Positions 4,244-39,985 of a stretch of 39,985 nucleotides of DNA are shown here, piece after piece. The notes under the pieces are model-generated. The model saw nothing but the letters and a program-made list of their open reading frames with translations. It ran no database searches and was not told where the DNA came from. The position numbers and the translations under genes are program-made. How positions within the stretch are numbered: position 1 is the stretch's first letter; each line of letters starts with the position of its first letter. Source of the stretch: a bacterium (GTDB lineage: Bacteria; Sysuimicrobiota; Sysuimicrobiia; Sysuimicrobiales; Segetimicrobiaceae); NCBI GenBank assembly GCA_035308905.1, contig DATGFS010000048.1:81437-121421 (forward strand), given 5' to 3'.

Positions 4244-5863
4244 TTACGTCGAGTAGTCGGCGTAGCGCGCGGTCTGGGCGCGGGCGGTCGGATCCGTAAT
4301 CACGTTGACGATCGCGGGCCTGCCGCTCGCCGCCGCGCGCTCGAGCGCCGGCCGGATCTGCTCGGGATCTTCGACGTACTCGGCGTGGCAGCCGATCGCG
4401 CCGAACATCAGGTCGTAGCGGGTGAAACCGAGGTTGCGGCCGGTCTTGGGCCGGTCGATGGCGGTCCAGCCCCCGTTGTTCGAGATCACGCAGATGACCG
4501 GCAGGCGGTGCCGGAGGGCCGTGTCCAGTTCCATCGCGTTGAGGCCGAACGAGCCGTCGCCGTGGAGCACCACCACGAGCGCCTCGGGCATCGCGGCCTT
4601 TGCCCCCAGCCCGAACGGCAGGCCGACGCCCATGCAGCCGTACGGGCCGGAGTTGAGGCTGTGCGGCGCGTAGAAGGGGATCGCGCTGCGCGCGTAATTC
4701 AAAATCTCCTGACCGTCGACGCAGAGCACCGCGTCGCGCGGGAGGAAGTCGCGGACCTCTTTGCACAGCCGGAGCGGGTGGATCGGCCGGCCGCCGGCGG
4801 CCATCCGCTCTTCCTGCTCGGCGCGTTTCTCTTCGTCCTCGCCGGCAAGGGACGAAATCCAGGCGGCGCGCCGCTCCGGGTGGAAGCGGCCGCCGCCCGC
4901 CGCCACGAGCTGCGCGAGCACGGCCCGGGCGTCGCCCGCGATCCCGGCGTCCACGCGGCGGTTGCGGCCGATCTCGGCGGGGTCGATGTCGATCTGAATC
5001 AGCTTCGCCTGCGGGTTCATGCGGGGTGGCCGCGCGTAGCCGATGACGTAGTTCTGGCGGGTGCCCACGAGTACGACGAGGTCCGCGTCCCGCCAGGCGG
5101 TGCCCCGCGCGCCGAGGAAGCACAGCGGGTGGTCCTCCGGGATGACGCCGCGGCCCTGGGGGGTGGTGTAGAAGGGAATGCGCGCCTGCTCCACGAGCGC
5201 GCGCAGTTCATCCTCGGCCTCGGCCCAGAGCACGCCGCTGCCGCTGATCACAACGGGCCGCTCGGACGCGGCGATCATCGCGACCGCGCGGTCGACCAGT
5301 GCCGGATCTCCCAGCGGGCGGCGGCGATCGTCCGGCGCCGAGGTCCACCGCACGTGATCGTCCGGGACCTCGCGATAGAGGACGTCTCCCGGCATATCGA
5401 GGTAGACCGGTCCCGGCCGGGCGCCGAACGCGTGGCGGAAGGCCGCATCCACGAACTCGGGGATCCGCCGCGGATCGTAGCACCGCTCCGCCCAGCGGGT
5501 GATCGGCCGGAATACCGCGACCTGATCCGTTTCCTGAAAGGCGCCCATCCCGGACTGCGAGACCGGGGTGGAGCCGCCGATCGCGACGACCGGCGCCGAA
5601 TCCACGAACGCGTTGGCCAGTCCGGTCACGAGGTTGGTCGCGCCGGGACCGCTGCACGCCATGCACACCGCGGGCCGCCGGCGCAGCCGGCTGTAGGCGT
5701 TCGCCATCATCGCGGCCGCCTGCTCGTGCCGGACGTCGATCATCCGGATCTCCCGCTGGCTGCAGGCGTTCTCGCAGTCGATCATGGGACCGCCCATCAG
5801 GAAGAAGATCACGTCGACGCCGTGATCCTTGAGCGCGCGCGCGAGAATCTCGTTGCCCGTCAT
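4244..5863 (-). CDS. ThDP-dependent decarboxylase/lyase (acetolactate synthase / oxalyl-CoA decarboxylase / 2-hydroxyacyl-CoA lyase superfamily)
   Basis: This 539-residue enzyme has the three domains of the POX/ALS-type thiamine diphosphate family. The N-terminal pyrimidine-binding domain has the cofactor-activating Glu47 in DVRHEQAAAMMANAYSR. A central domain follows (about 190-325), and the C-terminal diphosphate-binding domain has the GDGS motif ending in NNGG for Mg-ThDP. ATG 5863 was chosen because it overlaps the stop of the preceding CoA-transferase gene (ATGA) and aligns with the usual family N-terminus; the frame stays open upstream but reads as shadow. The pairing with a CaiB/BaiF CoA-transferase resembles the oxc-frc oxalate module and 2-hydroxyacyl-CoA lyase modules. 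The sequence is not close enough to oxalyl-CoA decarboxylase to fix the substrate. True acetolactate synthase is less likely, since no regulatory subunit or ilvC adjoins. Confidence 0.85.
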   Translation of the reverse strand: MTGNEILARALKDHGVDVIFFLMGGPMIDCENACSQREIRMIDVRHEQAAAMMANAYSRLRRRPAVCMACSGPGATNLVTGLANAFVDSAPVVAIGGSTPVSQSGMGAFQETDQVAVFRPITRWAERCYDPRRIPEFVDAAFRHAFGARPGPVYLDMPGDVLYREVPDDHVRWTSAPDDRRRPLGDPALVDRAVAMIAASERPVVISGSGVLWAEAEDELRALVEQARIPFYTTPQGRGVIPEDHPLCFLGARGTAWRDADLVVLVGTRQNYVIGYARPPRMNPQAKLIQIDIDPAEIGRNRRVDAGIAGDARAVLAQLVAAGGGRFHPERRAAWISSLAGEDEEKRAEQEERMAAGGRPIHPLRLCKEVRDFLPRDAVLCVDGQEILNYARSAIPFYAPHSLNSGPYGCMGVGLPFGLGAKAAMPEALVVVLHGDGSFGLNAMELDTALRHRLPVICVISNNGGWTAIDRPKTGRNLGFTRYDLMFGAIGCHAEYVEDPEQIRPALERAAASGRPAIVNVITDPTARAQTARYADYST

Positions 5864-34773: not shown

Positions 34774-36654
34774 TTACCGCCGCGCCGCGACGGAGTCAAG
34801 CAGGGCGACGATTCGTGCGGTGATGCGATCGAGTGTCTTCTCGAACGCGGGCTCGGAGAGGGCGGCGGCGGCGGGGATGGTCATCCACGGCTCGCCCGCC
34901 CCCGCTCCCGGCTTGGGCGGGCCGATCTGAACGATCGGGTGCCCCGCGGCTCCGAAGCCCTCGATGAGCACCACGTCGGGCGCGTCGTGCGCGGCCCCGG
35001 CGGGCCCGCGGATCAGTGATGCCAGCGGCATCTCCCCGGAGATGCGGATCGTAGTTTCCGACGGCCCGGCCAGGACGACCCGCAACGCGCCCGCCTCGAT
35101 CATCCGCGCGCTGTCGCTCTTTGGCCGGTCGATCTGGAATCCGTGCGCGGCGTGCTTGATCGCGCCGACGCGGAGCCCGCGCGCCGTGAGCCGCCTGATG
35201 AGCCCGACGGTCGCGGCGGTCTTCCCGCTGCCGGATGCCCCCACGAGGCCGATGACGAGCGGGCCGGGCGTTGCCGCGGCGATCCGGAAGTATTCGCGGT
35301 CTTCAGGCCGGTTAAGACGCATCACCGCCACGCGGGAGCCCGGCGCGAGGGACGGCGTTCCGCCCGGCAGCAGCACGAGGGCATTCGCCGCCGTAAGCAG
35401 CGTCAGGCGGCCGAGCGAGGCGTCGGTGAGCAGATGGACGGTGCGCTCGTCGGCCGCGTCGAGCCGTCCCCACAGGGCGCGCAGCCGGTCCGTCGGCCGC
35501 GCCCATCCGTCCGCGAGCGCCATCATCTCCACGGGCCGCACGACGAAGCGCGCGCCCGCCAGGCGGCGGAGCACCGGCCGCACGAGAAGATGGAAGGCGG
35601 CCAGACAGGCCACCGGCGTTCCCGAGAGCCCGATCGCCCACGTGCGCCCAGCCCGCGCCGCGAAGAACGGCCCGCCCGGTTTCAGGTCGACGCGCCCGGC
35701 GTACCGCCGCGCGCCGAGATCCAGCCACGTGCGATGCACCAGGTCGTAGCGGCCGACCGAGACGCCGCCGGTCGACAGCACGACATCGTAGCGATCCTGC
35801 ATGGCCGAGAACGCGCGCGCCGTCTCCCGCGGACGATCGGGGATGATGCCGCGGTACTCGACCTCGCATCCGGCCGCGGCGAGCTCGCCCGCGATCGTCA
35901 CGGCGTTGCTGTTGACGATGCAGCCGGGCGGCGGCGGCGGCCCCCCGGCCGCCAGCTCGACGAGCTCGCTGCCCGTGGCGACGAGCGCGACGCGCGGCCG
36001 GCGGTAGACCGAGACCGCGGCCACGCCGCACGCCGCGAGCGCGCCGCAGGCCGCGGGCGGAATCGGTTCGGCCGGCGCCGCCAGGATGTCCCCCGGCTGA
36101 ATTTCCTCGCCGGGCTCGGCGACGTGGCGTTTCCCCGGCGCGGCGCGGTCGAGATGGAGCGCCGTTCCATCCGCGCGCACCGCTTCGAGCGGCAGCACGC
36201 GGTCGCCCCTGCGGGGCACGGGGGCGCCCGTGGTGATCGACCAGGCCTCGCCGCGCGCCGGTCCCGGCCCGGGTGGCTCGCCCATGACGGACGTTCCCGT
36301 GATCCGGAGCGTGACGGACCGGCCTTCCGCGGCCCGGGCGATGTCCGCGTCGTGGCAGACGTAGCCATCCATCGCGGCGCGCCGGATGCGGGGCACGGCC
36401 GCGGGCGCGCGAACGCGTCCCGTCGCGATTCGACCCGCCGCCTCCCACACCGGGACGGTCTCGGCCGGAAGGGGTTGGACCGCGGCCAGGAGCCGTTCCA
36501 AGACCTCTTGAAGGTCGGCGCCGGGAGCGCCGCGCGTCACCACGGCCGGTCTTTTCCACGCCGCGCTGCGCAGGCCTCCCCGCACGACGGCGCCGGCCCC
36601 GCGCGGCGGGGAAGGAGGCCCGGCTGAATCGTGGAATAGGGCCCCCAACTTCAC
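34774..36654 (-). CDS. MoeA-MobB fusion: molybdenum insertase with GTP-binding MobB domain
   Basis: The 626-residue protein fuses two molybdenum cofactor proteins. The MoeA part (about 45-445) inserts molybdate into adenylylated molybdopterin: AMDGYVC, ITTGAPVPRRGDRVLPLE, VALVATGSELV, NSNAVTIAGELAAAGCEVEY, VVLSTGGVSVGRYDLV and LSGTPVACLAAFHLLVRP are all typical. The MobB part (465-626) has a P-loop GASGSGKT (472-479), AIKHAAHGFQID and DVVLIEGFG. MobB binds GTP and supports guanine-dinucleotide cofactor synthesis, needed by formate dehydrogenase. The start is GTG 36654 with GAGGG upstream. It is divergent from the formate dehydrogenase gene, 119 bases away. Confidence 0.9.
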   Translation of the reverse strand: MKLGALFHDSAGPPSPPRGAGAVVRGGLRSAAWKRPAVVTRGAPGADLQEVLERLLAAVQPLPAETVPVWEAAGRIATGRVRAPAAVPRIRRAAMDGYVCHDADIARAAEGRSVTLRITGTSVMGEPPGPGPARGEAWSITTGAPVPRRGDRVLPLEAVRADGTALHLDRAAPGKRHVAEPGEEIQPGDILAAPAEPIPPAACGALAACGVAAVSVYRRPRVALVATGSELVELAAGGPPPPPGCIVNSNAVTIAGELAAAGCEVEYRGIIPDRPRETARAFSAMQDRYDVVLSTGGVSVGRYDLVHRTWLDLGARRYAGRVDLKPGGPFFAARAGRTWAIGLSGTPVACLAAFHLLVRPVLRRLAGARFVVRPVEMMALADGWARPTDRLRALWGRLDAADERTVHLLTDASLGRLTLLTAANALVLLPGGTPSLAPGSRVAVMRLNRPEDREYFRIAAATPGPLVIGLVGASGSGKTAATVGLIRRLTARGLRVGAIKHAAHGFQIDRPKSDSARMIEAGALRVVLAGPSETTIRISGEMPLASLIRGPAGAAHDAPDVVLIEGFGAAGHPIVQIGPPKPGAGAGEPWMTIPAAAALSEPAFEKTLDRITARIVALLDSVAARR

Positions 36655-36773: not shown

Positions 36774-39700
36774 ATGACCACCGCGGTTACCCGTCGTGGT
36801 TTGCTCAAGTTGGCCGGTGCCGGCGCGGGCACGGCGGCGTTCTCGGCGCTCGGCTTCGATCTCGCCGAGGCCACCGAGGTCAAGCAGCAGCTTCACATCG
36901 CGGGCGCGACGGAGTCGCACTCCCTCTGTCCCTACTGCGCGGTCGGTTGCTCGCTGATCGCGTACACGCGCAAGCGCGCCGACGGCAGCACGGAGATCCT
37001 CCAGATCGAAGGCGATCCGGACAGCCCCGTCAACGAGGGCCGACTCTGCCCGAAGGGAGCGAGCGCGATGTCGATCGCGACCTCGAGCCGGCGGGTGGAC
37101 CAGCCGCTCTACCGCGCCGCGGGCGAGACCGCCTGGAAGCCGGTCTCGTGGGATTTCATGCTCGACCGCGTGGCGCGCCTGATGAAGGACGCCCGCGACC
37201 GGACGTTCGTGACCCAGGACGCCAAGGGCAATACCGTCAATCGCTGCGAGGGGATCGGATTCGCCGGCGGCGCCGCGTTCAGCAGCGAGGAGGGCTATCT
37301 CGCGACCAAGATCATGCGCGGGCTGGGGGTGGTCCACTTAGAGCAGCAGGCCCGTGTTTGACACGGGCCCACGGTGGTCAGTCTGGCCGCCACGTTCGGA
37401 AGAGGAGCAATGACAAATCATTGGAGGGACATCAAGAACGCTGACCTGATCCTGATCAACGGCGCGAACCCCGCGGAGGCCCACCCCGTGGGCTTCCAGT
37501 GGTTCGTGCGCGCCAAGTTGGATCCCAAGCGCGGCCCGGGAAAGGGCGGCGGGGCGAAGATCGTCCATGTGGATCCGCGGTTCACGCGGACCTCCGCGCT
37601 CGCGGACACTTACCTCCGGATCCGCACCGGCACGGACGTCGCCTACTTCGGCGGGCTGATCAACCACGTGCTCCAGAACAACCTCCACCACGCCGAGTAC
37701 GTGCAGCACTACACGAACGCGTCGTGGCTCGTCAAGGACGGCTATGGATTCAAGGACGGCCTCTTCTCCGGGTACGATCCGGCCAAGCGGACCTACAACG
37801 TCGCGACGTGGGGCTACGACGCGGACGCGCAGGGCATCGCGAAGCGGGACATGACCCTGCAGCACCCCCGTTCGGTCTTCCAGCTGCTGAAGGCCCACTA
37901 CGCGCGGTACACGCCCGAGATGGTGTCGTCGATCACCGGGATCCCCAAAGACGACTTCCTGAAGGTGGCGGCGCTGGTCGGGGAGATGGGCAAGCCCGAC
38001 AAGGTCATGACGATCGTCTACGCCGTCGGCCTGACGCACCACACGACCGGCGTGCAGCTGATCCGTTCCGGCGCACTCTTACAATTGCTCCTCGGCAACA
38101 TGGGCCGCCCGGGCGGCGGCATGAACGCGGAGCGCGGCCACGCGAACATTCAGGGCAACACCGACCACGCGATCTCGTGGGAGATCCTGCCGGGGTATCT
38201 CGCGATCCCCGCGCCCGGCGAGAAGAACCTCGCCGACTACGTCAAGGAGAAGGCGCCGAAGAAGTCCGACCCCAACTCGTGGAACTTCTTCGGGACGAAC
38301 TACAAGAAGTTCATGGTCAGCCTGCTCAAGGCATGGTACGGCGACGCCGCGACCAAGGACAACGAATTCGCGTTCGACTACATCCCGAAGCCGGCCGGGA
38401 ACTCATCCTGGATCTCGTTCTACGACGACGCGCTGCGCGGCAAGATGGACGGGATCATCCTCAACGGGATGACCGCGACGAGCATCGGCCCGGATTCGAA
38501 TCAGGTACTCCAGGCGCTGGCCAACCTCAAGTGGCTGGTCGTGATGGACCCGCTGCCGACGACGAGCTCGGAGTTCTGGCACGGGCCGGGCATGAACCCC
38601 GCCGACGTCAAGACCGAAGTCTTCATGATGCCGGCGACCCACTGGATCGAGAAGGACGGGTCGTTCGTAAACAGCGGCCGCTGGTCGCAGTGGAAGGACC
38701 AGGTGATCCCGCCGCAGGGCCAGGCCCGCCACGACCACTGGATCATGGCCGACCTGTTCAACCGCGTGAAGGCGCTCTATCAGAAAGAAGGCGGCAAGTT
38801 CCCGGATCCGATCATGCATCTGACCATGAACTACAAGGATCCGCTGAAGCCGGAGCTCGACGAGATCGCGCAGGAGGTCAACGGCAAGGATCTCGCGACC
38901 GGCAAGCGGCTCGCCACGTTCGCCGCGCTCAAGGACGACGGCACCACGATCGCCGGTGACTGGATCTACACCGGCAGCTATCCCGAGAGCGGCAACCTCA
39001 TGAAGCGGCGCGACGGCGTGCAGGACCCGAAGAAGAACGACCCGACCGGCATGGGCTTCTACGCCAACTGGGCATGGAGCTGGCCCCTCAACCGCCGGGT
39101 GCTTTACAACCGCGCCTCCGCCGATCTCGACGGCAACCCGTGGGATCCCGAGCGCGCCGGCATCAAGTGGAACGGGCAGCGGTGGGTCGGCGACGTGCCG
39201 GACTACCCGCCGGCGATGAACCCCAAGGACCCCAAGGCGTGGCTGCCGTTCATCATGACGGGCGAGGGCACCGGCCGGCTGTTCAGCAACACTCCCCTCG
39301 ACGGACCGTTCCCGGAGCACTACGAGCCGATCGAATCGCCGGTGGAGAACCCGCTGCACCCGCAGAACTCCGCGAACCCGGTGGCGTTCCTGTACGACCA
39401 GGCCGCGGGGCGGCCGAACCGGTTCGGGACGGTGGCCGATTACCCATACGTCGCCACGACGTACCGGCTGACCGAGCACGAACACTACGTCACGCAGCAC
39501 GTCGAGCACCTCGTCCAGTTGCAGCCGGAAGCGTTTGTCGAGATTCCCGACGGCCTGGCCGCGGAGAAGGGCATCAAGAACGGGGACATGGTGCGCGTGT
39601 CTTCGAAGCGCGGCAAGGTCGAGGCGCGCGCCATGGTCACGAAGCGCCTCGGCCCGCTCACCGTGGCCGGCAAGCAGGTGTGGCAGATCGGGATTCCGAT

Positions 39701-39851
39701 TCACTGGGGCTTCGTCGGCATTTCGGCGGACCAGCATCCGGACAAGTCGCAGCACTGGCTCGCCAACACGCTCACGCCCTTCGTCGGCGATGCCACCGCT
39801 CGGACGCCGGAGTTCAAGGCGTTCCTGGTCAACCTGGAGCGCATGGGATGA
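36774..39851 (+). CDS. Selenocysteine-containing formate dehydrogenase alpha subunit (FdnG/FdoG-type)
   Basis: One 1025-residue gene is interrupted by TGA 37359-37361, which I read as selenocysteine at residue 196. The flanks LEQQARV-U-HGPTVVSLAATFGRGAMTNHW match the FdnG active site, where Sec is also residue 196 in E. coli, and His197 follows. A SECIS-like hairpin lies 12 bases downstream. Residues 1-33 form a Tat signal with twin Arg7-Arg8 (TRRGLLKLAG), so the enzyme acts outside the cytoplasmic membrane. The [4Fe-4S] ligands are Cys52, Cys55, Cys59 and Cys92. Molybdopterin dinucleotide domains fill the rest (NADLILINGANPAEAHPVG, WLVVMDPLPTTSSEFW). GGAGGAGG precedes ATG 36774. It oxidises formate to CO2. 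No beta subunit gene follows in the window; an fdhE-like gene overlaps its stop. Confidence 0.95.
37373..37391 (+). promoter_or_regulatory. SECIS-like hairpin for selenocysteine insertion
   Basis: GGTGGTC (37373-37379) pairs with GGCCGCC (37385-37391), seven pairs with two G-U wobbles, closing the loop AGTCT. Counting the U of UGA as 1, bases U17, G23 and U24 that contact SelB in the E. coli fdhF element are all in the same places here. This is direct comparison from memory of the fdhF sequence. Confidence 0.8.
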
Positions 39852-39985
39852 GGGCACCGGCCGTGCTCGCCACGCCCTGGGCCGCCCGGCGCGACCGGGC
39901 GGACGTCCTGCGCGAGCGCTACCCGTTCGCGCGAGAGCCGCTCGCGCTGTACCGGGCGCTCGTGGACGTGCAGGAGCCTGTCTGG
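39848..39985 (+). CDS. Probable formate dehydrogenase accessory protein FdhE (N-terminal part only)
   Basis: ATG 39848 overlaps the formate dehydrogenase stop (ATGA), and the frame stays open to the window edge (46 codons). The visible part includes RADVLRERYPFAREPLALYR followed by ALVDVQE, a helical pattern like the start of FdhE (in E. coli, RAERL-x2-L-x6-L-x2-YLRF-x-ALI-x-AQE). FdhE binds the alpha subunit and helps its maturation, possibly via its C-terminal zinc-ribbon region, which is outside the window. The position directly behind the alpha subunit supports this. The assignment rests on a short helical stretch. Confidence 0.6.
   Translation, partial: MRAPAVLATPWAARRDRADVLRERYPFAREPLALYRALVDVQEPVW

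Follow-up and report, generated by a model that had tools for sequence, protein, structure and literature searches.

INTRODUCTION

In the SECIS element of Escherichia coli, U17 forms a single-base bulge. The Rfam model for elements of this kind, SECIS_3 (RF01989), has a lower stem in which CACGGCC pairs with GGCCGUG at nucleotides 40 to 46. The consensus for bacterial elements (bSECIS) comprises an apical loop of 3 to 9 nt, an upper stem of 4 to 16 bp, a G within the first two positions of the loop, and a distance of 16 to 37 nt from the UGA (PMC13188914). Formate dehydrogenases containing selenocysteine (Sec) rank among the most widespread selenoproteins of bacteria (PMC9312934), and a further Sec-containing FdnG is therefore an ordinary case.

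Here, we describe such a gene in an uncultured lineage, in which the form of the RNA signal departs from that of E. coli. The window (the whole stretch of DNA analyzed, 39,985 nucleotides) lies on contig C48 of a 4.0-Mb genome that is 97% complete, in 81 contigs, with an estimated contamination of 3.3%. SECIS positions are numbered with the U of UGA as 1, which places nucleotides 15 to 33 at 37373 to 37391. The features discussed are the following, in window coordinates.

34774 to 36654, minus strand: MoeA-MobB fusion for molybdenum cofactor synthesis, divergent and upstream of fdnG
36774 to 39851, plus strand: fdnG, encoding the 1025-residue alpha subunit of formate dehydrogenase-N, with Sec196
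36774 to 36872, plus strand: N-terminal stretch with the twin-arginine motif TRRGLLKL, a probable Tat export signal
37359 to 37361, plus strand: in-frame TGA, the Sec196 codon
37373 to 37391, plus strand: apical hairpin of the SECIS, with 7 bp, U17 opposite G31, and loop G23-U24-C25 at 37381 to 37383
37375, plus strand: U17, second base of a Val codon, opposite G31 (37389) and not bulged
37398 to 37406, plus strand: codons +13 to +15 (GGA AGA GGA), where an E. coli-type lower stem, unformed here, would have its 3' strand
39848 to 39985, plus strand: start of an fdhE-like gene that overlaps the fdnG stop (ATGA) and continues past the window end

RESULTS

The fdnG gene and its neighbors. With TGA read as U, positions 36774 to 39851 form a single frame ending in a terminal TGA; the standard code splits the gene into two open reading frames (36774 to 37361 and 37374 to 39851) that share the same frame. 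The product matches TIGR01553 (FdnG) at 1325.4 bits (cut-off, 814.2) over profile positions 2 to 1008 of 1009, and PF04879 (Fe4S4), PF00384 (molybdopterin), and PF01568 (dinucleotide-binding) all score above their cut-offs. A sequence-only reading of this stretch had proposed one formate dehydrogenase instead of two broken halves, and the single frame and the family match bear it out. It had also called for an alignment with FdnG proteins: E. coli FdnG (PDB 1kqf chain A) aligns at 1037.9 bits over residues 5 to 1023, and its Sec, given as X in the chain sequence, falls on residue 196. The TRRGLLKL stretch lines up with the beginning of E. coli FdnG and is probably a Tat export signal. Judged by its sequence, the gene encodes a respiratory formate dehydrogenase of the ordinary type, with an internal UGA that is read as selenocysteine.

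Upstream, the MoeA-MobB fusion scores above both family cut-offs (molyb_syn, 92.2 bits; mobB, 78.9 bits). Downstream on the contig lie the fdhE-like gene, an Fe-S beta subunit, and an NrfD-like membrane subunit. The fdhE-like gene (positions 4285 to 5223 of locus L018) matches FdhE at 47.7 bits, under the curated cut-off of 187.65, and also matches FdhE_C and FdhE_central. At most related loci, DNA similarity extends into the genes 3' of fdnG.

Conservation of the UGA codon. The bases around the UGA are GCC CGT GTT TGA CAC GGG CCC. A scan of genome contigs yielded 80 loci from many phyla, from which 83 genes were extracted, the window's own gene and copies in related genomes among them. TGA occupies the Sec196 codon in 83/83 of these and also in both same-genus genomes compared (L121 and L122), which agrees with the earlier placement of the UGA at catalytic residue 196. 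No Cys form was found at this position among the 83 genes, in a scan that reaches mainly close relatives. In one same-genus genome (G002; L121, 2059 to 2133), Cys replaces the Val preceding Sec (QARCUHGP), an unusual pair of Cys-Sec neighbors at an active site.

Selenocysteine machinery. Profile and RNA searches of the genome contigs recovered selA, selB, tRNA-Sec, and selD, each above its own family cut-off. Contig C33 holds selA (547 bits), selB (312 bits, or 333 with the neighboring stretch), and tRNA-Sec (68.7 bits, anticodon TCA); selD is on contig C3 (79138 to 80058, minus strand; locus L108). The sequence-only reading had reasoned that the organism must carry selA, selB, selC, and selD, and had named the absence of selB or selC from the genome as the observation that would speak against it; all four genes are present. 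They lie on contigs other than that of fdnG (C48), in an assembly with the contamination estimate given above. Because the SelB proteins of three same-family genomes are 63 to 70% identical to that on C33, we consider that C33 belongs to the lineage.

The selD gene itself has an in-frame TGA, in the motif CAG-U-ASKL, and nearly all relatives share it; a hairpin with loop GUU and an uninterrupted stem follows. A weak T-box leader match lies near selD (L108, 3553 to 3794, plus strand; 40.2 bits against a gathering score of 93). A second formate dehydrogenase-like gene (L113; contig C26, 34232 to 34810, minus strand) has an in-frame TGA in CNRT-U-HAPSV and a hairpin of its own, with GGUCU as the loop; the N-terminal part of the frame is short, as it is in several related genomes. 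In both selD and the second formate dehydrogenase, an in-frame TGA precedes a hairpin whose loop contains GU.

The apical hairpin. Seven pairs (15-33, 16-32, 18-30, 19-29, 20-28, 21-27, and 22-26) enclose the loop G23-U24-C25. Across 74 distinct sequences, 97.9% of the cells of the hairpin are paired, with both-side changes at four pairs, and the 10 named pairs together reach 97.7%. None of 500 shuffles matched the whole-structure pairing or the both-side-change value, and sliding the partners by one to three columns lowers pairing to between 23 and 58%. The hairpin meets the bSECIS consensus on all four points, with the 3-nt loop GUC, a stem of 7 to 8 bp, G first in the loop, and 19 nt between UGA and loop. 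Its folding energy with short flanks is not beyond that of shuffles (z = -0.60 and +0.21), and we therefore relied on comparative evidence.

Codon usage provides evidence that is independent of folding. Ser203 (codon +7) is AGT in 81/83 genes, although AGT makes up 3.3% of Ser codons elsewhere in them; this use of a rare synonymous codon indicates that the loop bases G23-U24 are fixed. Leu codon +8 is TTG in 72/83 genes compared with 4.9% elsewhere, the window itself having CTG. The strongest synonymous biases among 716 scored codon positions are those at +7, +8, and -1. U17, G23, U24, and U26 are invariant. The hairpin was thus correctly positioned by the sequence-only reading, and of the SelB contacts that it named, G23 and U24 hold up. 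For U17, conservation says little: the base is the second of a conserved Val codon and is fixed by the protein, so it was dropped as independent evidence of a SelB contact.

The U17 register and the lower stem. An opposed register, with U17 facing base 31, fits 67 of the 74 sequences, including the window; the bulged register fits 7. The second formate dehydrogenase, on C26, has A31 opposite the U, and its relatives have A31 or G31, as read from the sequences. At the gathering threshold, the Rfam search of the window returned no match; SECIS_3 scored 47.2 bits (E = 2.7e-10) against a gathering score of 63. That score was reached by 6/6 bulged loci tested versus 2/12 opposed loci. A search of the literature for work that compares SECIS elements with and without the bulge returned no paper matching all search terms.

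Where the SECIS_3 model has the 3' strand of its lower stem, the window reads GGAAGAG. Taken alone, the window forms three of seven lower-stem pairs, where codon usage predicts 4.77 (P = 0.007); GGC and CGC, the most frequent codons in these GC-rich genes, would pair there. In the window's family group, the mean lower-stem energy is -4.8 kcal/mol compared with -9.9 expected, and both Actinobacteria and the proteobacterial group are as expected. Because the sequences in this comparison are related and the groups were assigned by the analyst on the basis of record titles, the pattern is suggestive, but not proof, that codons +13 to +15 avoid lower-stem formation in the window's lineage. The purine-rich stretch GGAAGAGGAGCAATG (37398 to 37412) was considered, for its look, as an internal ribosome-binding site and start; avoidance of the lower stem covers both the codon pattern and the differences among lineages.

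DISCUSSION

We conclude, with near certainty, that fdnG encodes a Sec-containing formate dehydrogenase alpha subunit and that UGA196 is decoded by SelA, SelD, and SelB together with the hairpin. SelA would convert Ser-tRNA-Sec to Sec-tRNA-Sec using selenophosphate from SelD. By analogy with E. coli, SelB would bind the charged tRNA and the hairpin just 3' of the UGA, with G23-U24 in the loop as its main contact, and deliver Sec at UGA196. From E. coli FdnG, we predict that the product is exported and serves as the catalytic subunit of a respiratory formate dehydrogenase bound to the membrane. Sec196 would ligate the Mo or W of the bis-MGD cofactor and take part in formate oxidation next to His197, with electron transfer as in the E. 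coli enzyme.

Two other accounts of the TGA would leave no place for Sec. The codon could be a true stop, arising by nonsense mutation or sequencing error, with fdnG a two-part pseudogene, and standard translation does stop there. However, TGA stands at the same codon in all 83 homologues from many phyla, including separate same-genus assemblies, and the frame 3' of it is open and conserved. With the codon conserved and the sel machinery present, we regard the pseudogene account as already refuted and its likelihood as negligible. An altered genetic code, in which UGA specifies Trp or some other residue, would open the frame equally well, yet FdnG is known to carry Sec at this site (1kqf), the hairpin follows the UGA, and the genome encodes selA, selB, selD, and a tRNA-Sec whose anticodon is TCA. 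TGA also serves as the terminal codon of other genes and of fdnG itself. We give a changed code almost no credence.

A different question concerns a perfect 9-bp palindrome around the UGA (GGCCCGUGU UUG ACACGGGCC, 37349 to 37369), whose 3-nt loop UUG overlaps the codon. It could be a second control element, competing with decoding or helping it: it appears in the predicted fold of 37340 to 37410 (z = -2.95), and all nine pairs occur in just 0.8% of synonymous samples. Nevertheless, all nine pairs are found in 3/74 sequences (the window, L120, and L122) and are lost in the same-genus L121, and covariation is no greater than in shuffles. Such a role is very improbable, and we rejected it for lack of conservation and covariation.

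Sec-containing FdnG in this uncultured lineage is confidently supported. The sole unusual point is the compact form of the RNA signal, which is common to many uncultured bacteria and often missed by the standard RNA model; the SECIS_3 cut-off missed 10/12 of the tested relatives of this form. Standard gene calling, in turn, splits UGA-containing genes such as fdnG. We offer as a tentative possibility, on the doubtful side, that, in each of the three UGA genes examined, SelB of this lineage recognizes a compact SECIS that lacks a bulge and consists of a GU loop on an uninterrupted stem, and that synonymous codons of fdnG are selected against an E. coli-type lower stem. The compact element is a small structural lead, and since homologous genes have U17 either bulged or opposed, the importance of the bulge for SelB is testable.

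A separate observation comes from the same-family genome G008, in which a 14.7-kb contig (C34; locus L135) carries an fdnG of the bulged-U17 form and a second sel set (selB, tRNA-Sec, and a selD without TGA), in addition to the lineage's own sel set. Both SECIS forms thus occur in G008. The set on C34 is possibly foreign or mis-binned. Two SelB systems matched to the two SECIS forms were considered as an explanation and set aside, as one set may be foreign and the cases are too few.

Comparison with known systems. The gene shares with E. coli FdnG (1kqf) the twin-arginine start, Sec at the corresponding position with His-Gly-Pro-Thr-Val after it, and an in-frame UGA with a hairpin on its 3' side. 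The operon differs in its membrane subunit (L018, 6051 to 6905), which is NrfD-like, whereas E. coli FdnI is a cytochrome b. FdnG genes from Chloroflexi, Eremiobacterota, Actinobacteria, and ANGP1 assemblies (L028 to L101) have about 67 to 82% protein identity, TGA in all, the same compact hairpin, and the same kinds of genes next to them in most loci that extend far enough downstream. In Actinobacteria, the lower-stem codons are mostly GGC CGN, whereas the window's lineage has GGA AGA or GGA CGN. Relative to Rfam SECIS_3, the window shares the location, the apical stem, and the GU loop but has neither the bulged U nor the long lower stem of the model; with U17 facing G31, it also differs from the E. 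coli-type element.
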